Assembly: GCF_022399565.1 (NCBI RefSeq)
Contig: NZ_JAJTUT010000003.1
Coordinates: 806,001 to 870,000 of the forward strand
Length of the DNA stretch: 64,000 bases
Source: Flavobacterium algicola
Lineage (GTDB): Bacteria; Bacteroidota; Bacteroidia; Flavobacteriales; Flavobacteriaceae
Direction: 5' to 3'
Positions 50,782 to 63,705 of this stretch are shown here, one piece after another (the first letter of the stretch is position 1; every line of letters starts with the position of its first letter). Both the position numbers and the translations under genes were made by a program. The notes beneath the pieces are model-generated. The model did no database searches and was not told the origin of the DNA. It saw only the letters and a list, made by a program, of their open reading frames with translations.

Positions 50782-53700
50782 ATGCGTAAATTTTCTAGGC
50801 TCTACATTCTGTTGGCTTTTGCAAATGCAATGACTCTCTCTGCACAAAAATCAGCTGTATATACTCATGATTTAAAAGACTTCGACAAAGCTGTATTACT
50901 GTACAGAGATGGCCAATTTGCTTCTGCACAAACACTTTTTACAAAAGTATACTTGGCAAATAAAAATCAAGAAGTACTTGCAGACTGCGCGTACTATACT
51001 GCCAGTTGTGCCATTCGATTAAATCGTGGAGATGCTGAGGAATTAATTAATCGTTTTTTAACTGATTATCCTACTAGCGCTAAGAGTAATCAGGCTAATA
51101 TTGAAATCGCTCATTACTATTTCGAGCAAAAAAATTATTCAGAAGCTTTAAAAGCTTTTGCTGCTGTTAATGAATCGCAGTTAAGCTATGAAGGACGCGA
51201 TAAATATAACTTTCAAAAAGGTTATAGTTTATTTGCATCTAATGACAAAAAAGGAGCAGCGACTTATTTTAACAAAGTGGAGAAATCTCCAGTATATAGT
51301 TCTCAAGCTAAATATTACTTAGGTTTTATGGCTTATGAAGGTAATGATTATGCTCAAGCTAATAAATACTTTGATGCTGTTTCCGGAGACGAAAAATACA
51401 AAGAGAAACTTTCATATTACCAGGCTGACATGAATTTCAAGCAAGGTAATTTTGATCAAGCGATTGTATTAGGAGAAAAGGCAATGGCAAAATCCACTCC
51501 TGCAGAAAAATCTGAACTGAATAAAATTATTGGTGAGAGTTATTTTAATCAAAAAAAATATGATAAAGCCATTCCATATTTAACCCTTTATAAAGGTTCA
51601 AGAGGTAAATGGAATAATACTGATTATTACCAGTTGGGATATGCATATTACAAGCAAAATGATTTTGAGAAAGCAATCACGCAGTTTAATAAAATTATTG
51701 GAGGTAAGGACAGTGTTTCTCAAAATGCTTATTATCATTTGGGGGAAAGTTATTTAAACCTCAATAAAAAACAAGAAGCCTTAAATGCTTTCAAAAACGC
51801 ATCAGAAATGTCATTTGATATGGCAATTCAAGAAGACGCAAGTCTTAACTATGCAAAATTGAGTTATGATATTGGAAATTCATACACGAGTACTCCTGAG
51901 GTTTTACTAGGATTTATAACAAAGTATCCAAATAACAGTAATAGAGCAGTTATTGAGAAATTATTAATTGATTCCTATATTTCATCTAAGAATTATACTG
52001 AAGCGCTCGTTTTATTAGAGAAAAATAAAAGACCAGAAAATAAAGGTGCTTATCAAAAAGTAACTTTTTATAAGGGGTTAGAACTGTATACCAACAGAGG
52101 TTATTTGGGTGCTGCAGGAATGTTTAAAAAATCGTTGGAAAATCAAGTTGATGCTGAATTTACTGCCAGAGCAACATTCTGGAAAGGGGAAACGGAGAAT
52201 ATTCTTGATGATTATAAAAATGCATTGCTAAGTTTCAAACAATTTGCAGCAATGAGTGCTGCATCAAAAACACCAGAATATAAAAACATTAATTATAATA
52301 TAGCTTATGGATACTTCAAAGTAAAGGACTACGATCAAGCAGCTATTTATTTTAAGAATCAAATTGATAATTCAAAAAGCGATAAAGACCGTTTAAACGA
52401 TTCTTACTTGCGTTTGGGTGACTGTAATTTTGTTAACTCGAAGTATTATCCAGCAATGGAATCGTATAACAAAGTAATTGAGTACAATGATTTTGATGCA
52501 GATTATGCTTATTATCAAAAATCATTGTGTTATGGTTTTGTAGGGAAGAGTGATAAAAAAATTGAAGAACTTAATAACTTCATCAAACAATATCCAAAAT
52601 CAAACTACAGAGATGATGCATTGTATGAATTGGGTAATACCTATGTGGCCACAAACAAACAAGATTTGGCTATTAAAACGTATGATCGTTTAATAGAAGA
52701 ATATAAAAACAGCTCTTTTATTCCACGAGCTATCTTGAAACAAGGTTTGGTTTATTATAACTCAGACAGAAATGAGTTGGCTTTAACCAAATTAAAGAAA
52801 GTGGCTGCTGCTTTTCCAAAAACACCAGAAGCACTTGAAGCAGTTTCAACAGCAAGATTGATTTATGTAGATAATGGTCACGTTGATGAATATGCTACCT
52901 GGGTACGTACTTTAGACTTCGTAGCTGTTACAGATGCAGATTTAGATAATGATAGCTTTGAATCGGCAAACAAACAGTATAGTCAAAAAAATAATGCACA
53001 AGCTATTTCAGGTTTTAATGCTTATATAGCTAGTTTCCCTAGAGGACTGCATAGCTTGCAAGCTAATTTTTATTTAGCACAAACTTATTTTGCAGAAGGA
53101 CAAGAAAGCAAATCGGTTGCAAATTACGAATATGTTGTAAGTCAATCTCGTAATGAATTTACAGAACAATCATTGACACGTTTGGGTCAAATTTATTTAA
53201 AGAATACTGACAAAACAAAAGCGATAAGTACTTTATTGCGTTTAGAAAATGAAGCAGAGCTTAGTCAAAATAAAATTTTTGCTCAGTCAAATTTGATGAA
53301 ATGTTATTATGATAAAAAGGATTACGCTAACTCTGTGACTTATGCAGAGAAAGTATTGAATGCTTCTAAAATTGATGATAATGTGAAAAGTGATGCTCAA
53401 ATAATTATTGCGCGTTCAGCTATACAGACAGGTGATGAAACGAAAGCTAGAGCAGGATATGCAAAATTATTAACTATTGCAAAAGGAGAATTAGCAGCAG
53501 AGGCTTTGTATTATGATGCTTATTTCAAAAACAAAGATGGTAAATTTGAAGCGTCTAATAGTACCGTGCAAAAAATTGCTAAAAGTTACTCTAGCTACCG
53601 CTATTTTGGAGCAAAAGGATTGGTTGTTATGGCTAAAAACTTTTATGGTTTAAAAGATAGTTTTCAAGCGACTTATATTTTAGATAATGTGATTCAGAAT

Positions 53701-53796
53701 TTTACAGATTTTCCAGAAGTAGTTGCAGAAGCTAAAACGGAATTAGCTGCAATCAAATCTCAAGAGTCTAAAACAAATTCATCGATTCAAAATTAA
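50782..53796 (+). CDS. Large secreted tetratricopeptide repeat protein
   Basis: 1004 residues with a signal peptide (ending TLSAQ). The whole mature chain is TPR and Sel1-like helical repeats, of which I can pick out at least fifteen (YYQLGYAYYKQNDFEKAITQF is an example, given here in parts as YYQLGYAYYKQN and DFEKAITQF). No catalytic domain is visible. It is a periplasmic or outer-membrane scaffold. It is transcribed with a predicted barrel 87 bases downstream, and the pair probably forms one envelope complex. Confidence 0.88.
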   Translation: MRKFSRLYILLAFANAMTLSAQKSAVYTHDLKDFDKAVLLYRDGQFASAQTLFTKVYLANKNQEVLADCAYYTASCAIRLNRGDAEELINRFLTDYPTSAKSNQANIEIAHYYFEQKNYSEALKAFAAVNESQLSYEGRDKYNFQKGYSLFASNDKKGAATYFNKVEKSPVYSSQAKYYLGFMAYEGNDYAQANKYFDAVSGDEKYKEKLSYYQADMNFKQGNFDQAIVLGEKAMAKSTPAEKSELNKIIGESYFNQKKYDKAIPYLTLYKGSRGKWNNTDYYQLGYAYYKQNDFEKAITQFNKIIGGKDSVSQNAYYHLGESYLNLNKKQEALNAFKNASEMSFDMAIQEDASLNYAKLSYDIGNSYTSTPEVLLGFITKYPNNSNRAVIEKLLIDSYISSKNYTEALVLLEKNKRPENKGAYQKVTFYKGLELYTNRGYLGAAGMFKKSLENQVDAEFTARATFWKGETENILDDYKNALLSFKQFAAMSAASKTPEYKNINYNIAYGYFKVKDYDQAAIYFKNQIDNSKSDKDRLNDSYLRLGDCNFVNSKYYPAMESYNKVIEYNDFDADYAYYQKSLCYGFVGKSDKKIEELNNFIKQYPKSNYRDDALYELGNTYVATNKQDLAIKTYDRLIEEYKNSSFIPRAILKQGLVYYNSDRNELALTKLKKVAAAFPKTPEALEAVSTARLIYVDNGHVDEYATWVRTLDFVAVTDADLDNDSFESANKQYSQKNNAQAISGFNAYIASFPRGLHSLQANFYLAQTYFAEGQESKSVANYEYVVSQSRNEFTEQSLTRLGQIYLKNTDKTKAISTLLRLENEAELSQNKIFAQSNLMKCYYDKKDYANSVTYAEKVLNASKIDDNVKSDAQIIIARSAIQTGDETKARAGYAKLLTIAKGELAAEALYYDAYFKNKDGKFEASNSTVQKIAKSYSSYRYFGAKGLVVMAKNFYGLKDSFQATYILDNVIQNFTDFPEVVAEAKTELAAIKSQESKTNSSIQN

Positions 53797-53883
53797 GTTT
53801 AAGAGTAAATAAAAAAGGTAAGTTAAAGCAAAAGCAATCAAATAAGCATTTCGATTTTGATCGAATATCAAAAGAAAAAAAAT

Positions 53884-55647
53884 ATGAAATTTAATTTCCA
53901 AAATAATATAGCCTTAGCGATAGTAGCATTTACTGTTCAAGTATCAGTTGCTCAAAAGAGAGATGGAAACATAGGTTCAGAGGAAGTGACTGTAACAAAA
54001 TCGTACAGTCCAACAATATCTGATGCTAACAAAATTAAAGAAATTCCATCCTTAGAAGATGACGGAAATGCAAAGAAAGAAACAATTAAATATTCCATTT
54101 TCTCGTTTCCTGTAGCCTCAACATTTGCACCCTTGAAAGGTAAAGCAGAAGGAGTAGATAAAACGGAACAGGCGCATTTGTATGATAATTATGCAACCTT
54201 AGGTATTGGGAATTTCGGAACTATTAATGCCGAACTTTTTGTAAACAAGGAATTAAATAATAATGACTATGTAGGAGGGATGTTTCGCCACCTATCTTCA
54301 CAGGGAGGAATCAAAAACACACCTTTCGATACAGATTATTACGATACAGCTATTGACTTAACGTACGGTGCTAATTATGATAATATGTCTATGAACTTAG
54401 ACTTAGGATACAAAAATCAAAGTTATAATTGGTATGGTTTACCTCAAGATTTTGGTAGTTCATTATCCGATGCTGACAGAAATAATGTGATTAATACAAT
54501 TGACCCACAACATGGATATAATACTTTTTCTTTAGGAAGTAGATTTTCATTTAAAGAAGGTTTTTTAAATCAAGCTAGTTTGAAATATAGCCATTTCTCT
54601 GATAATTATGGTTCAAGTGAAAATAGGTTTATCGCGCAACCAACTATCGAATTTGAGGTAAAAGAAGAACTTGTAAAAACAAAATTAATTGTTGACTACG
54701 TAGGAGGTACTTTCGAAAACGATTATAACAAAACAAATACAGAAGCCATACAATATGGCTACACAAATATTGGAGTTCAACCTAGTTTTATAATGCTTAA
54801 AGACGACTGGACTTTAGATTTAGGTGCTGGACTTTTTTACAGTATTGATGGAGAAAACAGCAGAGGAACCTTGTTCGTCTATCCACAAGTTACGGCTTCG
54901 CTCAATGTAGTTGGTGATTTGATGATTTTCTATGCTGGAGCAGAAGGGAGCTTAGAGCAAAATTCATACGAGCAGTTTGTAGATGGGAATCCTTTTTTAT
55001 CACCAACAATTGGAGATCGAAATGCAGCTAATTTTATCAAGCCAACTGATAAACAATTTGATATTTATGCTGGATTAAAAGGTAAATTAGCAAACAATGT
55101 AAGCTACAATATTAAAGCATCTTATCTTAATGAGAAAAACAAGGCGTTGTATAAAAGTAGCGACTACAATGAATTGATTACAAATGAATCATACGCTTAC
55201 GGAAACGCTTTTCAAGTAGTATATGACAATGTAAAAACATTGAGTTTTACTGGAAATGTGAAAGCTAATTTTACTGAAAATATTGCTTTTGGTTTAACAG
55301 GTACATTTAATAGTTTCAAAAATAGTTTTGAGCAAGAAGCATGGAATTTACCAACAGTAAAAGTGGAGTCTAATCTAGATGTAAATATTACTCCAAAATG
55401 GTTTGTTGGTGCTCAAGTGTTTTATGTGGGTGAGCGTATGGATAATTTACAAAACGTGACATCATCAGCTACAGAATTGGGTAGTTATTTTGATGTGAAT
55501 GCGCACTTAGGTTACAAACACAGCGACCGTTTAACAGGATTTTTAAAATCGAATAATATAACAAATAATGGTTATCAAAAATGGTTGAATTATCCTGTAC
55601 AAGGTTTTCAAATCGTATTAGGAGCTAATTATAAATTTGATTTTTAG
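53884..55647 (+). CDS. Outer-membrane beta-barrel protein, TonB-receptor-like, no plug seen
   Basis: About 587 residues from the ATG at 53884, which places the signal peptide (IALAIVAFTVQVSVAQ) first. The segment EVTVTKSYSPTISDANKI follows, then a long run of alternating aromatic and hydrophobic strands ending in F (LGANYKFDF). Databases tend to call such proteins TonB-dependent receptors, but I see no plug domain. It may need the TPR protein upstream for assembly or function. A terminator follows at 55684. Confidence 0.75.
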   Translation: MKFNFQNNIALAIVAFTVQVSVAQKRDGNIGSEEVTVTKSYSPTISDANKIKEIPSLEDDGNAKKETIKYSIFSFPVASTFAPLKGKAEGVDKTEQAHLYDNYATLGIGNFGTINAELFVNKELNNNDYVGGMFRHLSSQGGIKNTPFDTDYYDTAIDLTYGANYDNMSMNLDLGYKNQSYNWYGLPQDFGSSLSDADRNNVINTIDPQHGYNTFSLGSRFSFKEGFLNQASLKYSHFSDNYGSSENRFIAQPTIEFEVKEELVKTKLIVDYVGGTFENDYNKTNTEAIQYGYTNIGVQPSFIMLKDDWTLDLGAGLFYSIDGENSRGTLFVYPQVTASLNVVGDLMIFYAGAEGSLEQNSYEQFVDGNPFLSPTIGDRNAANFIKPTDKQFDIYAGLKGKLANNVSYNIKASYLNEKNKALYKSSDYNELITNESYAYGNAFQVVYDNVKTLSFTGNVKANFTENIAFGLTGTFNSFKNSFEQEAWNLPTVKVESNLDVNITPKWFVGAQVFYVGERMDNLQNVTSSATELGSYFDVNAHLGYKHSDRLTGFLKSNNITNNGYQKWLNYPVQGFQIVLGANYKFDF

Positions 55648-55810: not shown

Positions 55811-56260
55811 ATGACTTTCAAACAAAAAATACATACACACTATACATTACTAGTACAAGATAGAATTGATGTTTTTAGAGATATGATCTCAGGACTGACA
55901 GAAGATTCAAAAAACGATGCCAAAGGATCAGCAGGAGATAAACATGAAACGGCTTTGTCAATGATGCATATCGAACAAGAGAAATTAAACAGGAAACTTG
56001 CTGAGGTTTTAGATCAAAAAGGAGTTTTAGAGAAAATTAATCCTGAGATTAGCGCCGAAACTATTTCCTTGGGAAGCCTAGTCAAAGCAAATGGAATTTA
56101 CCTTTACCTATCACTGGCATTGCCAAAGATAAATATGGAAGGAATTAATATTATTGCTTTGTCACCCCAAGCCCCCTTAGGGAATAAGTTGATGGGGAAT
56201 AAGGTAGGATTTACATTTGAAATTAATGGGACAACTTATTTGGTTGAAACTGTTGAATAA
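55811..56260 (+). CDS. GreA/GreB-like small protein
   Basis: About 149 residues from the ATG at 55811. The N-terminal half is a charged helical hairpin (about residues 1-80). The C-terminal half has the shape of the GreA C-terminal FKBP-like domain: ISLGSLVKANGIYLYLSLAL and IIALSPQAPLGNKLMGNKVGF, compared with the S-P-x-x-x-A-L-x-G-K-x-x-G of GreA. From memory, such flavobacterial proteins are often mislabelled 3-oxoacyl-ACP synthase, which this is not. A role in binding the RNA polymerase secondary channel is an inference. The acidic tip of GreA (Asp-Glu pair) is not clearly conserved. Confidence 0.6.
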   Translation: MTFKQKIHTHYTLLVQDRIDVFRDMISGLTEDSKNDAKGSAGDKHETALSMMHIEQEKLNRKLAEVLDQKGVLEKINPEISAETISLGSLVKANGIYLYLSLALPKINMEGINIIALSPQAPLGNKLMGNKVGFTFEINGTTYLVETVE

Positions 56261-56446: not shown

Positions 56447-56713
56447 ATGAGCAAAACAATGACAGTCGACATTTTGTCGAGTATTAAAGGAGCACAGCCT
56501 TCAGAGTCCGTGAACAAATTATTTGATGTAATCAAAAATGCACATCCTACAAATAATACTTTAAATAATGTCAATCGTAATGCGGTATTTGTTAGTGATT
56601 TAAGGGAAGACGTTGTGGTAGAGAGTTCGGCTATCGAAAAACAACTTATTTTGGAAAATTTTCCGAACAAGAAAAATGGTTTTTTAGTAGTTGCTAAAGT
56701 TATAGAAGGATAA
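56447..56713 (+). CDS. gatC: Candidate GatC subunit of tRNA amidotransferase (divergent)
   Basis: 88 residues, close to GatC length. The C-terminal half, LREDVVVESSAIEKQ through ILENFPNKKNGFLVVAKVIEG, aligns with the GatC belt, R-E-D then N-A-P-x-x-x-x-G-Y/F-x-V-P-x-V-I-E. The N-terminal half does not show the usual LAKLARLEL motif, so it has diverged. The stop is one base before the gatA start, and gatB-aspS follows. That context is the strongest support. GatC wraps round GatA and GatB and stabilises them. A standard search might leave it hypothetical. Confidence 0.65.
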   Translation: MSKTMTVDILSSIKGAQPSESVNKLFDVIKNAHPTNNTLNNVNRNAVFVSDLREDVVVESSAIEKQLILENFPNKKNGFLVVAKVIEG

Positions 56714-56714
56714 A

Positions 56715-58112
56715 ATGGATTCTCAGATAAAAAAAATACACCAGCAATTGGTGTCGAAAGAAATAACTTGTACTGCTTTGGTACAAGAAAAATTGAACTT
56801 GATTAAAGAAAATAAATACAACTCGGTAAACTCTTTATTGGACACATTGGCGCTAGATTTAGCCGCAAAAGTAGACGTTAAAATTGCTAACGGAGAAACT
56901 ATTGGTTTATTAGAGGGAATTCCGTTTGGAATTAAAGATGTGTATATGGTGCAAGGAACATACACAACGGCAAGCTCCGAATTACTTAAAAATTATAAAT
57001 CTCCATATACAGCAACTGCTATTCAGAAATTATTGGATGCAGGTGCTATTCCATTGGTAAAAGAAAACTGCGACAGTTTTGGTCATGGTTCTTCTAGCGA
57101 AAATACCATTTTTGGAGCGGTTAAAAATGCAATTAATCCAGAATTAGTGGCAGGAGGATCTAGTGGAGGTTCTGCTGTGAATGTAGCAAAAGAGTACACT
57201 GTTTTTTCTATTGGTGGAGATACAGGAGGTTCGATTCGTCAGCCTGCTGGATACAATGCTATTTATGGTTTTAAACCGACTTACGGAAGAGTATCGCGAT
57301 TTGGATTAATGGCGTATGCATCTTCTACAGACTGCGTAGGACCATTGGCTAAATCAATTGAAGATATTCGAATTGTACTGAATGTTATTAGCGGTAAAGA
57401 TCCAAAAGATCAAACTTCAATTAACTCAAACGAAATTTCTGAAGATGCGATTACGGCATCAGAAGTAAAAACGATTGGTTATTTTAAGAATTTTGTCGAA
57501 AATGATGCTATTGACGTACAAGTGAAAGCGGACTTTCTAGCAGCTATCGAAAAAATTAAAGCTAAAGGTATTACAGTAAAAGAACTGGATTTCTTTAAAT
57601 CGGATATCTTAGTTTCTACCTATTATACGCTAGCAATGGCTGAAACGGCCTCTAATTTATCTCGCCTAGACGGAACCAATTATGGTAATCGTATCGAAGC
57701 AGAGAATCTAATCGAAACTTATGCAGTGACACGTTCTGAAAACTTTTCGGAAGAAACTAAACGTAGAATTGTAGGAGGGAACCAAGTATTATCGCAAGGT
57801 TTCTCGGATGAAATATATTTAAAAGGGCTAGCTTTAAGAGATCAAATTTCTGAAAACTTCAGTAAAGATTTTGAAGAAGTAGATGTTATATTGTCACCAG
57901 TGACACCAAGCACACCTCCTAAAATTGGAGACAGTTTGAAAGATCCATTGGCAATGTACTTGTCTGATGCTTATACAGTAGGTTTTAGCTTGGGACAATT
58001 ACCAACGATGACTGTGCCACAAGGTACGCCTACAGGACTGCAGATTACAGCAGCAAAAAATAATGATGAATTAGTGTTGAAGTTTGCAAACTTCTTAAAA
58101 GATACGATATAA
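56715..58112 (+). CDS. gatA: Asp/Glu-tRNA amidotransferase subunit A (amidase family)
   Basis: 465 residues, slightly short for GatA. The amidase triad is complete: Lys74 in GIPFGIKDVY, cis-Ser153 in GGSSGGSA and nucleophile Ser173 in GGDTGGSIRQPAG. It hydrolyses glutamine to supply ammonia to GatB. It sits between the GatC-like gene and gatB-aspS, and its TAA overlaps the next ATG by one base. A general amidase is the alternative, but the context argues for GatA. Confidence 0.9.
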   Translation: MDSQIKKIHQQLVSKEITCTALVQEKLNLIKENKYNSVNSLLDTLALDLAAKVDVKIANGETIGLLEGIPFGIKDVYMVQGTYTTASSELLKNYKSPYTATAIQKLLDAGAIPLVKENCDSFGHGSSSENTIFGAVKNAINPELVAGGSSGGSAVNVAKEYTVFSIGGDTGGSIRQPAGYNAIYGFKPTYGRVSRFGLMAYASSTDCVGPLAKSIEDIRIVLNVISGKDPKDQTSINSNEISEDAITASEVKTIGYFKNFVENDAIDVQVKADFLAAIEKIKAKGITVKELDFFKSDILVSTYYTLAMAETASNLSRLDGTNYGNRIEAENLIETYAVTRSENFSEETKRRIVGGNQVLSQGFSDEIYLKGLALRDQISENFSKDFEEVDVILSPVTPSTPPKIGDSLKDPLAMYLSDAYTVGFSLGQLPTMTVPQGTPTGLQITAAKNNDELVLKFANFLKDTI

Positions 58113-61100
58113 TGGAATTGGAGCAATTAACTGAGGCATTAAAAGCCCACGATTTAGAATTGGTAATTGGACTTGAAACACACGTTCGATTGAATACCAA
58201 AACCAAGTTGTTTTGTTCTTGTCCAAATCAAGAAATAGAAACACCAAATGAAAATATATGTTCTGTATGTACAGGACAAATGGGCGTTTTACCTGCCCTA
58301 AATAGAGAAGCAATTACAAAAGCGATTTATTTTGGAAAAGCGGTAGAATCAACTTTTAGTAATGAAGTGATATCTTGGGATAGAAAGCATTATGAATATC
58401 CCGATAATCCGAAGAACATTCAAATAACGCAGTTTCACAATCCAATCATTCCTGATGGTCATGTGTCTTGTTATCGTAATGACGGTTCTCAATTTACAGT
58501 GACACTTACTCAGGTTCATATTGAGGAGGATGCTGCCAAATTGATGCACGAAAAGAAAACTTCGCTAGTTGATTTTAATAAAGCGGGTGTGCCGTTAATC
58601 GAAATTGTTACTGATCCATGTGTTCGCAATATCGAAGATGCATCTACTTATGCACAATACATTCAACGTATTGTTCAAAATTTGAGAATCTCTGAAGCCA
58701 ATCTAGAAAAAGGAGAATTCAAATCGGATGTTTCAGTATCCTTACGTAAAATCAATTCGGATGTTTTGAACCCACGAACGGAGATTAAAAACTTGAACTC
58801 GTTTAAGTTTATGGTCGAAGCTTTGAAAGAAGAGGTAGAGAAGCAATTCAACTATTTTATCGAAAATAAAGCATTCAGGCCTGATCAAACGACCGTCTTA
58901 TGGGATGCAGATTTGAAGCAAACCAAAGTAATGCGTAAGAAAGAATTTGAAGCAGATTACCGTTTCATTTCGGAGCCAGATTTGCCTTTCGTGAATATCA
59001 AAGCAGAGATTGATGCTATTTCTGTAGACACGAGTGCTTTGCCTTATGCAGTAGAATCTATTTTGATAAATGGTGGTGTTTTGCCACAAGACGCAAAATT
59101 TTTCACGGCTGATGCTTTGCGTTCTAGGACTTTTGTGACTTTAAATAATAAAATTAACGATCCGTCATTTGTAGCCAAAACTTTGGCAAATAATATCAAG
59201 GCGGAAGATTATATCAAAATCAGAAATATTGCTCATTTGACAACTATATTTGTGTTGTTTAAATCAGAAAAAATTACCGCAGTATTAGTTCAAAATGCGA
59301 TCGCAGGTTATTTAAAAGATCAAAATTTTGATTACAATAAATATTTTGCAGACAACATTATATCTGAGGATAAAATTCAAGAAGTTATTGCTAAGGTAAT
59401 TTGTGAAAATGAAGTTGTTGCCAATGATATAAAAGCGGGTAACGAAGGTAAAGCTGGAATCTTAGTTGGTAAAGTATTAGGAGTAGTAGGTAAAGGTGCT
59501 GATGGGAAAGTAATTCGTAAAATTATTTTAGATCAATTGGGTACTGCTGCCGTAGCAGAAAAGAAAGAGGCTGCAGAAAAAGTAGCCGATTCAATTACAG
59601 TGGCAAACAAAGAAGGACAGGATGAAACACTTCCCGAGGTTCCAATTATTATAAAAGACAGTTATAGAACACACAAGATTTCACAGTTATCTGAAGAAAG
59701 CATTAAAGAAGAAGTAATGTTGTCAGGTTGGGTAGCTAGTGTTCGTGACCATGGAGATTTGATGTTTATTGATTTACGTGATTCAAGCTATGAAATTTTT
59801 CAGGTTCGTATTAGTAGAGAGTCATTTGCAAATATTGATGAACTAGTAAAATTAAAACCAGAGTCGGTTATTTCGGTAACGGGAATTGTAGTGGGTCGTA
59901 ATGAGGATGATTACAATGCTGGCTTACGAACTGGTAAAATAGAATTGGAAACTTCTGCTTTAGAGATATTAAATTTGTCTAAAACATTGCCGTTTGAAAT
60001 CAAAAGAGCAGCTAAGACAAACGAAGCCATTCGTTTTCAATATAAATTCTTAGATCATAGAAATGAAGAGGTGAGAAGAGCAATTGTTAACCGTCATAAA
60101 GTAATCAAGTTATTGCGTGACATGTTGGATAACGAAGAGTTCTTAGAGATAGAAACACCAATTTTGAGCGCCGGTACCGATGAGGGAGCACGTGAATTTA
60201 TTGTTCCTACTCGAAAGGGTTCAGGCTTGTTTTATACGCTTCCACAAGCGCCACAACAGTTCAAGCAAATGTTGATGGTGAGTGGTTATGAGAAATATTT
60301 CCAAATTGCACGTTGTTTTAGAGATGAGGATTCTCGTGGAGACCGTCAACCCGAATTTACGCAATTGGATATCGAAATGGCATACGCGAGTATGCAGCAA
60401 ATTATCGATTTGAATACTAAAATGTTTAATGAAATAGTAACCAAAATTTACGGCAAAAAATGGATCTTACATCCGTTTGCTGTCATTACCTATAAAGACG
60501 CGATGGATTTTTATGGTTGTGACCGACCTGATTTGCGTTACGGGTTAAAAATGCAAGACATCACCGATATTGTAAAAGACACTACTTTCCAAGTATTCTC
60601 TAAACCAATTGACGAAGGTGGAATTGTAAAATGTATCAAAGTTTCGGCTGCAGAGCAAGGAAACAAACGTATGTCTAAAGGACAAATTGAAACCTTGACA
60701 GCTGTTGCACAACAACACGGTTTAGGTGGATTAGCGTATATTATTGTTAATGAAGAAGATTTGCAATCTCCAATTATTAAATTTTTAGGGGAAGAAATCG
60801 CAGCTGGAATTATAAAAGCTACGGATGCTCAAGTAGGAGATATTGTATTCTTTTCGGCAGCAGATTATGCTACGGCTAATAAAGCTTTGGATGCTGTTCG
60901 TCAAGAAATGGGTAGAATGTTGAATTTGATTAATCCGAAAGAATTACGCCCGGCTTGGGTAATTGATTTTCCTATGTTTGAAAAAACAGACGAAGGTAGA
61001 TGGACGTTTACACACAACCCGTTCTCAATGCCTGCTATTTATGATTTGAAGAAACACATGGATGGTAACGAAAATGAAATAGGATCAATCATTGCGCAGC

Positions 61101-61444
61101 AATATGACATCATCTTAAACGGTTATGAAATAGGTGGAGGATCTGTTCGTGCGCACAAATCGGAAATTCTTGAAGCGACTTATAAAAACATGGGTTACAA
61201 CGAAGAAGAGATGATGAAGAGTGTAGGAACGATGTACAAAGCCTTCCAATACGGTGCACCGCCACACGGTGGAATCGCATGGGGAATTGATCGTTTGATG
61301 ATGATCTTGGAGAAAAAAGCTTCTATTCGTGAAGTTATGGCTTTCCCGAAGACAGGTTCAAGTGAAGATTTATTATTTGGAGCACCATCACTATTATCAG
61401 ACAGAAAAGTAGAAGAGATGAATGTTAGGATTTTGAGGAAATAA
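58112..61444 (+). CDS. gatB-aspS: Bifunctional GatB amidotransferase subunit / aspartyl-tRNA synthetase fusion
   Basis: 1110 residues. Residues 1-485 are GatB: LVIGLETHVRLNTKTKLFCSCPN (read as LVIGLETHVRLNTKTKLF with a Cys cluster C-x-C and C-x-x-C), DFNKAGVPLIEIVTDP, and a YqeY-like tail (EGKAGILVGKVLG). A linker follows, rich in Ala, Lys and Glu. From about Tyr518 it is a complete AspRS: OB-fold (VMLSGWVASVRDHGDLMFID), class II motif 2 FRDEDSRGDRQPEFTQLD and motif 3 GGIAWGIDRLMM. The AspRS charges tRNA-Asp (perhaps tRNA-Asn) and the GatB part amidates mischarged tRNA, so the fusion can pass substrate directly. Confidence 0.96.
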   Translation: MELEQLTEALKAHDLELVIGLETHVRLNTKTKLFCSCPNQEIETPNENICSVCTGQMGVLPALNREAITKAIYFGKAVESTFSNEVISWDRKHYEYPDNPKNIQITQFHNPIIPDGHVSCYRNDGSQFTVTLTQVHIEEDAAKLMHEKKTSLVDFNKAGVPLIEIVTDPCVRNIEDASTYAQYIQRIVQNLRISEANLEKGEFKSDVSVSLRKINSDVLNPRTEIKNLNSFKFMVEALKEEVEKQFNYFIENKAFRPDQTTVLWDADLKQTKVMRKKEFEADYRFISEPDLPFVNIKAEIDAISVDTSALPYAVESILINGGVLPQDAKFFTADALRSRTFVTLNNKINDPSFVAKTLANNIKAEDYIKIRNIAHLTTIFVLFKSEKITAVLVQNAIAGYLKDQNFDYNKYFADNIISEDKIQEVIAKVICENEVVANDIKAGNEGKAGILVGKVLGVVGKGADGKVIRKIILDQLGTAAVAEKKEAAEKVADSITVANKEGQDETLPEVPIIIKDSYRTHKISQLSEESIKEEVMLSGWVASVRDHGDLMFIDLRDSSYEIFQVRISRESFANIDELVKLKPESVISVTGIVVGRNEDDYNAGLRTGKIELETSALEILNLSKTLPFEIKRAAKTNEAIRFQYKFLDHRNEEVRRAIVNRHKVIKLLRDMLDNEEFLEIETPILSAGTDEGAREFIVPTRKGSGLFYTLPQAPQQFKQMLMVSGYEKYFQIARCFRDEDSRGDRQPEFTQLDIEMAYASMQQIIDLNTKMFNEIVTKIYGKKWILHPFAVITYKDAMDFYGCDRPDLRYGLKMQDITDIVKDTTFQVFSKPIDEGGIVKCIKVSAAEQGNKRMSKGQIETLTAVAQQHGLGGLAYIIVNEEDLQSPIIKFLGEEIAAGIIKATDAQVGDIVFFSAADYATANKALDAVRQEMGRMLNLINPKELRPAWVIDFPMFEKTDEGRWTFTHNPFSMPAIYDLKKHMDGNENEIGSIIAQQYDIILNGYEIGGGSVRAHKSEILEATYKNMGYNEEEMMKSVGTMYKAFQYGAPPHGGIAWGIDRLMMILEKKASIREVMAFPKTGSSEDLLFGAPSLLSDRKVEEMNVRILRK

Positions 61445-61777: not shown

Positions 61778-62263
61778 ATGAAACATATAAAGATAAATAT
61801 TGATAAAATTGATTTGGAACTTGCACAACTTTTGTGGAAATATCCAAATCGATTACTTGCTACAGATGAAAGGTTGAAATTATATGAAAAATTTGGTAAG
61901 CTTTTACAATTTAATTTTTCAGAAAACTCAATAATCTACAATGATCAGCTTTTAGCTATGCCTCATTTGGTTTATTTAGTTGGTCAAGCAAGAAAGTTTA
62001 ACCAAAGGACAGGGTTTTATACAAGTCAATATTGTCCGATAGTTGAAGAGGATAGACCTATTAATAATGTAAACACAAAAGTAATTGTAATAAATAATGA
62101 AGTTAAAATTGTTGATAAAAAGGAATACCCAAATTTCTTATTCTATTTAGAATTTGCGGATTATGATAAATACAAAGGGAATGCAATCTATTTTGTGGAA
62201 ATATATAAAGAAATAATTCTTAAATCTTCAATTTTTTTAGACCCATATTATAAATCTAAATAA
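61778..62263 (+). CDS. Orphan protein of unknown function
   Basis: 161 residues, cytoplasmic, rich in Lys, Ile, Asn and Tyr. It starts MKHIKINIDKIDLELAQLLW and contains FYTSQYCPIVEEDRPINN and LFYLEFADYDKYKGNAIYF. I recognise no family. The AT-rich composition and position beside a decayed toxin-antitoxin locus fit an accessory gene acquired by transfer, which is an inference. No neighbour is cotranscribed. Confidence 0.6.
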   Translation: MKHIKINIDKIDLELAQLLWKYPNRLLATDERLKLYEKFGKLLQFNFSENSIIYNDQLLAMPHLVYLVGQARKFNQRTGFYTSQYCPIVEEDRPINNVNTKVIVINNEVKIVDKKEYPNFLFYLEFADYDKYKGNAIYFVEIYKEIILKSSIFLDPYYKSK

Positions 62264-62567
62264 TATATAAATGCTTAAGAAATTTTTCTCTTAATTTGTA
62301 TCACTACATATACAAGGAGATTTATGGCAATATGAACAATGGTGATTTTCATCACTATCATATAAATCACCTGAGTGCTGGAAATTCATCATATCATAAG
62401 ATCTGTCCTGAGCTATCTACGGCTCCATTCCCTGCTCTGCAATGTCTCCGACTTTGAGGTAGTGATTCTCGTTTTTTAACTGTCGTATGTTCTAATTTTT
62501 GTCAGTCGCTGAATGACAAACACAATGTCAAAATCGGAGACTTTATGAAGCAAATTATGTGATTTAA
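62264..62567. other. Noncoding stretch with a decayed accessory region
   Basis: No supported gene. It contains an inverted repeat: GTCTCCGACTTTGA at 62445-62458 and TCAAAATCGGAGAC at 62528-62541, complementary at 13 of 14 positions, 69 bases apart. This may be a small mobile-element relic. The right end abuts the higB remnant. Confidence 0.5.
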
Positions 62568-62606
62568 ATGACTGAATATGATAAAATTAATGCTGACACA
62601 ATTTAA
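62568..62606 (+). pseudogene. higB toxin remnant (C-terminal end only)
   Basis: The 12 codons read M-TEYDKINADTI-stop, which matches the last residues of HigB-type RelE-fold toxins (typically HxEYDKIDADTI, from memory). The codon before this stretch is a stop (TAA), so nothing of the toxin body can be read. The remnant sits just before a HigA-like antitoxin gene, which is the normal order higB-higA. It is a decayed toxin gene. Confidence 0.55.
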
Positions 62607-62986
62607 AATTTAGAATTATCAAAATTGCACCTATTAAAACAGAAAATGATTACTAAAAGGCTTTGGAGAGACTAGAAGTGATTTTTGATGCTATACCTAA
62701 TTCTATTGAAGGAGATGAAGCTGAAATTTTATCAATGCTAATCGAAAATTATGAGAACCAATTTTTTCCAATTGAAGCTCCAGATCCAATCGAGGCAATA
62801 AAAATAAGAATGGAAGAAATGAATATTAAGCAGAAGGATTTGGTTGGTATTATTGGTGGTAAAAGAAGTGTTTCAGAAATTTTAAGCAAGAAAAAAAGAT
62901 TAACTGTAGATATGATTAGAGAATTGGAAAGAGTTTTAAATATTTCTGCATCTGTGCTAATTAATAAGTATCAATTGAGTAAGTAA
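62597..62986 (+). pseudogene. HigA-like antitoxin with an in-frame stop near its N-terminus
   Basis: The reading frame runs HNLKFRIIKIAPIKTENDY, a TAA at 62654-62656, then KALERLEVIFDAIPN and on to the stop at 62986. This matches HigA antitoxins, which normally read TENDYKKALERLE there. A single A-to-T change (AAA to TAA) would explain the stop. No ATG opens the upstream part. The remaining 107 codons, from a TTG at 62663, still hold a complete XRE helix-turn-helix (IKIRMEEMNIKQKDLVGIIG, KRSVSEILSKKKRLTVDMI). A shortened DNA-binding protein could still be made from the TTG, but an active antitoxin pair is unlikely. Confidence 0.7.
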
Positions 62987-63042
62987 TAAATTTAGTTCAG
63001 AAGTCAATTTCAATGGTAATTGTTAATTGAAATTAAAATTAT

Positions 63043-63087
63043 AAAATCCAAAACAGCATTTTAAATGTTTGTTTTGGATTTTTTTTA
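63043..63087. terminator. Bidirectional terminator hairpin
   Basis: AAAATCCAAAACA (63043-63055) pairs with TGTTTTGGATTTT (63070-63082), a perfect 13-bp stem with a 14-base loop and a T9 run on the plus side. It separates the HigA-like gene from the converging methyltransferase gene. Confidence 0.85.
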
Positions 63088-63117
63088 TTGCTATTGAAAT
63101 TGATTTTTGTTGTTTTT

Positions 63118-63576
63118 TTAAGACCTCGGCTTATTAAGCCCTCTATCATAAAGCACAATACTCCCTGCAACCGATACATTCAAGCTATAATGGGATTTGA
63201 ATTTTACTAAAAAATGACATTTTTCAATGGCTGCTTTTGAGAGTCCGTTGTCTTCTGCGCCTAGTAGGTACACGCAACGTCTTGGGTGTTCAAATGTTTC
63301 TAAATCAGTGGCTCTTTCATCAAGTTCTACGCCAACTAGGCGAGCGCCTTTGGGTAGGTTTTTGAAGAAATCTTCAAAAGTTTCATAATGGAAATACGGA
63401 ATTGCATTTACAGCATTGTGGGTGTCGCAAGCTTGTTTGGCATAACGATTTCCGATGGTGAAAATAAAGCTCGCCCCAAGGTTTTGAGCAGATCGCCATA
63501 AAACACCTAAGTTCTCAGGAGTTTTCCCGTTTAATATTCCGATTCCGAAATATTCATTTACAAAATTATCATTCAT
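63118..63576 (-). CDS. TrmH/SpoU family RNA methyltransferase
   Basis: About 152 residues from MNDNFVNEYFG. SPOUT-fold motifs: motif 1 GKTPENLGVLWRSAQNLGASFIF, motif 2 YLLGAEDNGLSKAAIEKC and motif 3 YSLNVSVAGSIVLYDR, written here in family order. It is expected to 2'-O-methylate a tRNA or rRNA ribose; which one cannot be told from sequence. The start is set by the promoter at 63581-63588, which leaves almost no leader. Confidence 0.9.
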   Translation of the reverse strand: MNDNFVNEYFGIGILNGKTPENLGVLWRSAQNLGASFIFTIGNRYAKQACDTHNAVNAIPYFHYETFEDFFKNLPKGARLVGVELDERATDLETFEHPRRCVYLLGAEDNGLSKAAIEKCHFLVKFKSHYSLNVSVAGSIVLYDRGLNKPRS

Positions 63577-63580
63577 GCGG

Positions 63581-63588
63581 CAAAAGTA
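63581..63588 (-). promoter_or_regulatory. Bacteroidota -7 promoter element for the TrmH-type gene
   Basis: Minus strand TACTTTTG, an exact TAnnTTTG match ending 4 bases before the ATG at 63576. The transcript would begin within or just before the start codon, so it may be leaderless. Confidence 0.45.
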
Positions 63589-63705
63589 CAAACTGTTGTT
63601 AGTATTTTCAAATTTAATTAACACACTGATTTCAGGGAGTAGTCGAGTATTGCATGAAATTAATTTTTATGAACGTTGTTTGTGGAGTAGTATGCACGAT
63701 TATAC

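Follow-up and report, generated by a model that had tools for sequence, protein, structure and literature searches.

The window, i.e., the 64,000-nucleotide stretch of Flavobacterium algicola DNA analysed here, contains a gatC-gatA-gatB::aspS operon, in which the genes for a GatCAB-type amidotransferase lie in a row and gatB is joined to a gene for aspartyl-tRNA synthetase (AspRS). The fusion gene is a single frame of 1110 aa (58112-61444, + strand), with a one-base overlap with gatA. The operon and its flanks comprise the following features:

50782..55647, + strand, a TPR-type protein and an outer-membrane-like protein (names by look), farther left flank of the chromosomal slot discussed below
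55814..56260, + strand, protein of 148 aa whose C-terminal GreA/GreB match stays below threshold, forming the left edge of the slot; a recurrent neighbour within the genus, also found beside asnB in two asnB genomes
56447..56713, + strand, divergent gatC, 88 aa, assigned from a PF02686 match, an alignment of relatives, a profile-profile comparison and dN/dS
56715..58112, + strand, gatA, glutaminase subunit, 465 aa, starting one base past gatC, assigned from profile matches
58112..59656, + strand, GatB part of the fusion, with the catalytic domain and YqeY-like tail in residues about 1-477 and a linker (about 40 residues) that ends near residue 516
59657..61444, + strand, AspRS part, which begins near residue 517 of the fused protein and is of bacterial type (anticodon-binding domain with RDHG, class II core and GAD domain)
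61778..63624, mixed strands, the three ORFs that separate the operon from gyrB in F. algicola (names by look), as follows
within 61778..63624, + strand, 161-aa ORF without an assigned family
62663-62986, + strand, 107-aa HTH-like protein (by look)
63118-63624, - strand, 168-aa TrmH/SpoU-like methyltransferase (by look)

In F. agrisoli (L277), a gene similar to the TrmH-like one is likewise located after the operon, before asnB2.

The two larger amidotransferase subunits were recognized by profile searches. GatA matches PF01425 with 388.6 bits and the GatB part matches GatB_N with 306 bits; among the more specific models, the scores are above the cut-off for TIGR00133 (GatB, 337 against 314.8) and NF004012 (390.5 against 338) and under it for TIGR00132 (GatA, 442.5 against 481.1). 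The aligned Lys of GatA and its GGSSGGSA and DTGGSIRQPA stretches, which we take to be catalytic, are present. A structure model of the 1110-aa fusion, built with 21 sequences, had a pLDDT of 48.6 and was discarded.

GatB (PF02934) was detected in 59 of 397 sampled genomes of Flavobacteriaceae, the family being judged from named relatives. At these 59 loci, gatB::aspS was read in all and gatA in 58. A gatC was read in 57; the two loci where it is missing (L072 and L093) both lie at contig ends. The fused frames measure 1115-1130 aa in 58 cases, and the remaining one (809 aa, G170) is on a contig of 3562 bases. Gene order and strand are the same in each of the 57 complete operons, 53 of which also have the one-base gatA/gatB overlap. 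Named relatives include Flavobacterium, Lutibacter, Polaribacter, Flavivirga, Tamlana and others, together with one bin labelled Lentimicrobium (best 80 of 304). In a sample of the wider phylum, GatB is present in at least 322 of 395 genomes; when 50 such genomes were rechecked, an unfused frame of 484-571 aa was seen in 41, and the fusion, measuring 1117 and 1123 aa, in two further members of the window's genus. Fusion-sized GatB frames are restricted, among the frames listed, to the window's family. Seven genomes of the wider phylum (G736, G505, G767, G581, G676, G558 and G546) have low-scoring GatB_N matches in frames of 643-654 aa, presumably about the size of archaeal GatE. In 20 further genomes from the phylum, the 12-13 kb stretches around gatB yielded neither a credible canonical gatC (best E 0.12) nor any gatA match. 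On plasmids, the GatB part found 49 records, every one below 60% identity, and GatC found none.

The smallest gene of the operon is the most difficult to assign. An earlier note had recognized the GatC pattern in the C-terminal half of the 88-aa product but no N-terminal helix motif, and both observations hold. The protein scores 24.2 bits against PF02686, for which the cut-off is 23, and 23.8 bits against TIGR00135, below the cut-off of 47.1; the expectation that it would be called hypothetical is therefore a borderline matter, the Pfam cut-off being narrowly passed. It is the sole match above the PF02686 cut-off in a family sample of 149 genomes. In an alignment of 55 of the 57 GatC sequences (the window's among the 57; two with extended N-termini were excluded), PF02686 is matched by 52 sequences and TIGR00135 by all 55 at E <= 0.01. 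The C-terminal half follows the pattern LRED ... ENFP..K.G.LVV.KVIE, in which Arg53 and Asp55 are invariant. When the alignment was compared as a profile with five solved GatCs, a match was obtained in the C-terminal 36 columns only (probability 84, P 7.7e-6), and it aligns Arg53 and Asp55 of LRED to Arg64 and Asp66 of Staphylococcus aureus GatC. These two S. aureus residues are described as GatB contacts (PMC4027206). The N-terminal half has a new conserved motif of its own, M.K.M..D.LSSIK.A..S..V..LF..I, and cannot be aligned to the N-termini of the five solved GatCs, whose helix with an LA[RK] stretch is absent; this weakens the claim of a typical GatC but not that of a divergent one. The median dN/dS of gatC is 0.20 over 42 pairings with relatives that share 75% identity or more, drawn from 77 named loci with a gatC match, two of the 42 being partial.

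It could be argued that the ORF encodes an unrelated small operon protein whose C-terminal half happens to resemble GatC. Its length of just 88 aa, the undetectable N-terminal similarity and the TIGR00135 score under the cut-off would all suit such a protein, and so would the search of the profile against PDB chain sequences, in which nine chains, mostly repeat proteins, were found, with no GatC and no independently passing stretch. A single-chain model from the 55 sequences was of low confidence (pLDDT 50.8) and was discarded. Set against this are the near-universal family matches of the aligned relatives, the invariant Arg/Asp pair at the S. aureus contact positions and the place of gatC at the head of the operon in 57 of 57 loci. 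Moreover, the only PF02686 match in the genome at E <= 0.001 is the 88-aa ORF itself, so that no canonical gatC, which would have spoken against the earlier proposal, was found elsewhere with this profile. An unrelated protein is hence very improbable. Because of the family matches, the contact residues, the conserved operon order and the lack of a second PF02686 match, the view that the ORF is a genuine, very divergent GatC completing gatC-gatA-gatB::aspS, as the note had suggested, is supported at the sequence level. As to its adaptation to the GatB-AspRS fusion, also proposed in the note, what is seen is a co-occurrence and no more: every divergent GatC found adjoins a fused GatB.

With regard to the synthetase part, the fused enzyme differs from its stand-alone counterparts at a diagnostic position of the anticodon-binding domain. 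All 59 fused rows read RDHG, with His at this position, whereas all 30 stand-alone rows read RDK, with Lys. Among solved structures, the AspRS of 4wj3 also has His (RDHG), and 1efw/6hhv and 1eqr/1c0a have Leu (RDLG); we take these to be the enzymes of Pseudomonas aeruginosa, Thermus thermophilus and Escherichia coli, respectively. The position presumably corresponds to P. aeruginosa His31, a determinant of the relaxed specificity of non-discriminating AspRS, and Gly82 of the same enzyme is assumed to be a second one. At the latter position, Asp is found in the window fusion, and DD[YF]N in patterns covering 30 of the 59 fused rows. Two of the class II motifs are present in all 59 rows and the third in 58, the remaining row being truncated. 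Since the fused and stand-alone enzymes of the same genome are 38.6% identical, the fusion is not a recent copy.

According to a 2014 survey, GatCAB requires a U1-A72 pair in tRNA(Asn) (PMC4206432). This pair is present in all 45 genomes read, the present one included (20 with the operon, 22 with asnB and 3 with asnA). As a separator of operon from asnB genomes it fails, as all 22 asnB genomes read have it.

The operon of F. algicola stands in a genome otherwise well provided with synthetases, a context that the note did not take into account. F. algicola has a stand-alone AspRS (582 aa), AsnRS, LysRS, GlnRS and GluRS, and a stand-alone AspRS is found in at least 57 of the 59 operon genomes, the other two (G170 and G271) being 76-77% complete. 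Four class IIb synthetase matches are found in 54 of the 59, among the matches listed. On the same basis, three operon genomes that are 99-100% complete (G228, G237 and G383) have three matches only, which by frame size and score are the stand-alone AspRS, the fusion and LysRS. AsnRS thus appears to be missing from these three genomes, and, if so, the operon must supply their Asn-tRNA(Asn).

The distribution of the operon is best understood in relation to that of the asparagine synthetases. Canonical AsnB (NF006949, E <= 1e-90, a threshold chosen after the scores of both AsnB types were known) was detected in 302 of the 397 family genomes, in 297 of them above the model cut-off, and in none of the 59 with the operon, while 36 genomes have neither (Fisher p ~1e-45, in a test that ignores relatedness). 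AsnA was searched for in 80 genomes, leaving out 4 operon genomes and 15 with neither operon nor asnB; it is absent from all 55 operon genomes tested, including that of F. algicola, and from the 4 asnB genomes, and present in 11 of the 21 with neither. The operon, asnB and asnA therefore appear, from gene content, to be three alternative asparagine routes. At least five genera among the 397 genomes (g1, g7, g48, g114 and g133) contain both operon and asnB genomes.

A complication is the presence of AsnB-like proteins of another type. PF00733 has no match better than E 1e-10 in 36 of the 59 operon genomes and a strong one in the other 23, namely the present genome and 22 others, for which the operon may not be the sole source of asparagine. 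The protein of F. algicola scores 423 bits against TIGR01536 (cut-off 267.1) and 266 against NF006949 (cut-off 499):

C3:41517-43364 (= L398:8518-10365), AsnB-like protein of 615 aa, glutamine-hydrolysing type, between murB and glycosyltransferases (names by look)

Surface sugars are a possible target of this protein, but it may also have a role in asparagine synthesis. Another case is F. agrisoli (L277, outside the 397), in which an AsnB2-like gene follows the operon. As the G127 relative of this protein passes the NF006949 cut-off (675 against 499), F. agrisoli would probably count by that model as having both operon and AsnB, an exception to the zero overlap; it is as if only the canonical asnB copy had been exchanged for the operon there. 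Two AsnB2 proteins encoded near gyrB begin with MGG instead of MCG (L148:1990-3603 and L277:10184-11794), so that they lack the Cys1 expected of a glutaminase, and they may use free ammonia as substrate or have another role.

The operon and asnB also share a chromosomal position by gyrB. In 45 of the 59 operon loci, gyrB is located on the gatC side, always in opposite orientation, and in 43 of these no more than one ORF separates the two. Beyond asnB, it is seen in the same orientation in 16 of 20 asnB loci selected from the canonical-AsnB list, adjacent or a single ORF away in 14 of them. No gyrB was seen in the remaining 14 operon and 4 asnB stretches. The other flank is shared as well (names by look): a DUF2911-like gene precedes asnB in 17 and a queE-like gene in 5 of the 20 asnB loci, and the same two are found on the side away from gatC in 28 and 23, respectively, of the 59 operon loci. 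Both flanks, with gyrB at one end and one of these genes at the other, are present in 16 of the 20 asnB loci and 27 of the 59 operon loci. Given these shared flanks and the opposite orientation of gyrB, the operon, as read from gene order, is in the position of asnB, inverted. Within the window's genus, it is collinear with the asnB arrangement: two asnB genomes of the genus have GreA-like, asnB, asnB2 and gyrB, and F. undicola (L255), an operon genome, has GreA-like, gatC, gatA, gatB::aspS and gyrB. In F. algicola, the gyrB match starts at window coordinate 64015, just beyond the window end.

A gyrB tree built from 52 rows with the operon and 16 with asnB requires no fewer than seven state changes, at least four of them on well-supported branches, for rows that were chosen, not random, and with a marker that is linked to the slot and a tree that is blind to gain versus loss. 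Distances of the fusion correlate with those of gyrB (Mantel r 0.68, 51 rows) and of the stand-alone AspRS (r 0.75, 30 rows), which would fit mostly shared descent, with transfer possible.

Taken together, these observations are best explained if gatC-gatA-gatB::aspS specifies a transamidosome whose parts are covalently tethered and which forms asparagine on tRNA, in place of free asparagine synthesis, a reading to which we assign a probability of about 0.86. It builds on the gene content of the genomes, the conservation of the operon, its exclusion with canonical asnB and asnA, the shared slot and the diagnostic residues, and it would entail a particular tRNA specificity, enzymatic activity, channelling and GatC contact. 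Briefly, the fused, presumably non-discriminating AspRS would load aspartate onto tRNA(Asn), the tethered GatB would activate the aspartyl side chain and amidate it with ammonia, and GatA would release this ammonia from glutamine, with the divergent GatC predicted to strap GatA to GatB. tRNA(Asp) would be served by the stand-alone AspRS, and AsnRS, where retained, would use scavenged asparagine. From the asnB slot by gyrB, the operon would thus substitute for free asparagine synthesis.

Two other roles deserve consideration. The operon might chiefly be a backup for AsnRS, needed when that enzyme is inhibited or asparagine is scarce, without being a route of asparagine synthesis. Such a role would agree with the AsnRS of F. 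algicola and with the four class IIb matches of most operon genomes, which fit a retained AsnRS; however, a mere backup would hardly exclude canonical asnB and asnA so fully or occupy the slot of asnB, and it is at odds with the three genomes apparently devoid of AsnRS, so that we regard it as unlikely. Amidation of Glu-tRNA(Gln), as performed by GatCAB in many bacteria, is less credible still: Gln-tRNA(Gln) is a frequent use of GatCAB (PMC4206432), but GlnRS is present in the genome and the fused synthetase is an AspRS, not a GluRS.

Beyond tRNA-dependent asparagine synthesis as such, a more far-reaching scenario can be sketched, which we consider speculative. Because the stand-alone AspRS covers tRNA(Asp), the fused one may have become dedicated to tRNA(Asn), with synthetase and amidotransferase in one chain that would not need to let go of the misacylated product and GatC rebuilt to fit. 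The operon and asnB would then be alternative alleles of one slot, implying a repeated exchange of free for on-tRNA synthesis, after which some lineages might have lost AsnRS.

If the proposed function is correct, a natural, covalently fused Asn-transamidosome would exist in common environmental bacteria, and the question of why asparagine is made on tRNA at all could be put to a clean genetic test, species of one genus having either route in the same slot. A second AspRS that looks redundant and an 88-aa ORF of borderline status would become parts of a biosynthetic pathway, and predictions of asparagine auxotrophy for Flavobacteriaceae without asnA and asnB would be corrected.

No paper on a GatB-AspRS fusion was found in the part of the literature covered. 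A bifunctional GatB/AspS product name is in use in RefSeq. With regard to solved Asn-transamidosomes, the GatA and GatB of F. algicola have matching chains in PDB 3KFU as well as in 4WJ3, and the AspRS part matches that of 4WJ3. In these complexes, AspRS and GatCAB are understood to act jointly on tRNA(Asn); AspRS is a separate chain there, whereas it is covalently joined to GatB here. AspRS joined to an amidotransferase subunit is also known from the NCBIfam model NF009460 (AspRS/GatC fusion), but the partner is GatC instead of GatB, and the fusion of F. algicola, at 463.6, is below the cut-off of 1379. The divergent GatC is reminiscent of fungal mitochondrial GatF (PMC4027206), in which a GatC-like C-terminal region likewise follows an N-terminal region of another kind; GatF is extended by a large segment at its N-terminus, while the N-terminus of the window GatC is short and replaced.

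At the level of the pathway, the closest parallels are described in the available passages of PMC4206432, which do not mention a GatB-AspRS fusion. Deinococcus radiodurans and Thermus thermophilus form asparagine on tRNA with a second, archaeal-type ND-AspRS and GatCAB, beside AsnRS and GlnRS, an extra AspRS being described there as rare. The present system resembles theirs in having an extra AspRS and GatCAB, with AsnRS and GlnRS present and AsnA and canonical AsnB absent, but its extra AspRS is of bacterial type, contains a GAD domain, forms one protein with GatB and is encoded together with gatC and gatA in a single operon. Bdellovibrio bacteriovorus has ND-AspRS and GatCAB beside AsnRS and GlnRS, and 13 genera were surveyed that have GlnRS, AsnRS, GatCAB and one AspRS without an Asn synthetase, Bacteroidetes being among the clades; the surveyed Bacteroidetes genera may include carriers of the fused operon (PMC4206432). 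AsnRS, GlnRS, GatCAB, the apparent lack of a canonical Asn synthetase and U1-A72 in tRNA(Asn) are common to these bacteria and the present system, although the AspRS of Bdellovibrio is single and unfused, whereas a stand-alone AspRS is kept here besides the fused one. The chemistry of Asp-tRNA(Asn) amidation is therefore known, and what appears to be new is the GatB-AspRS fusion, the divergent GatC and the in-place exchange with asnB.
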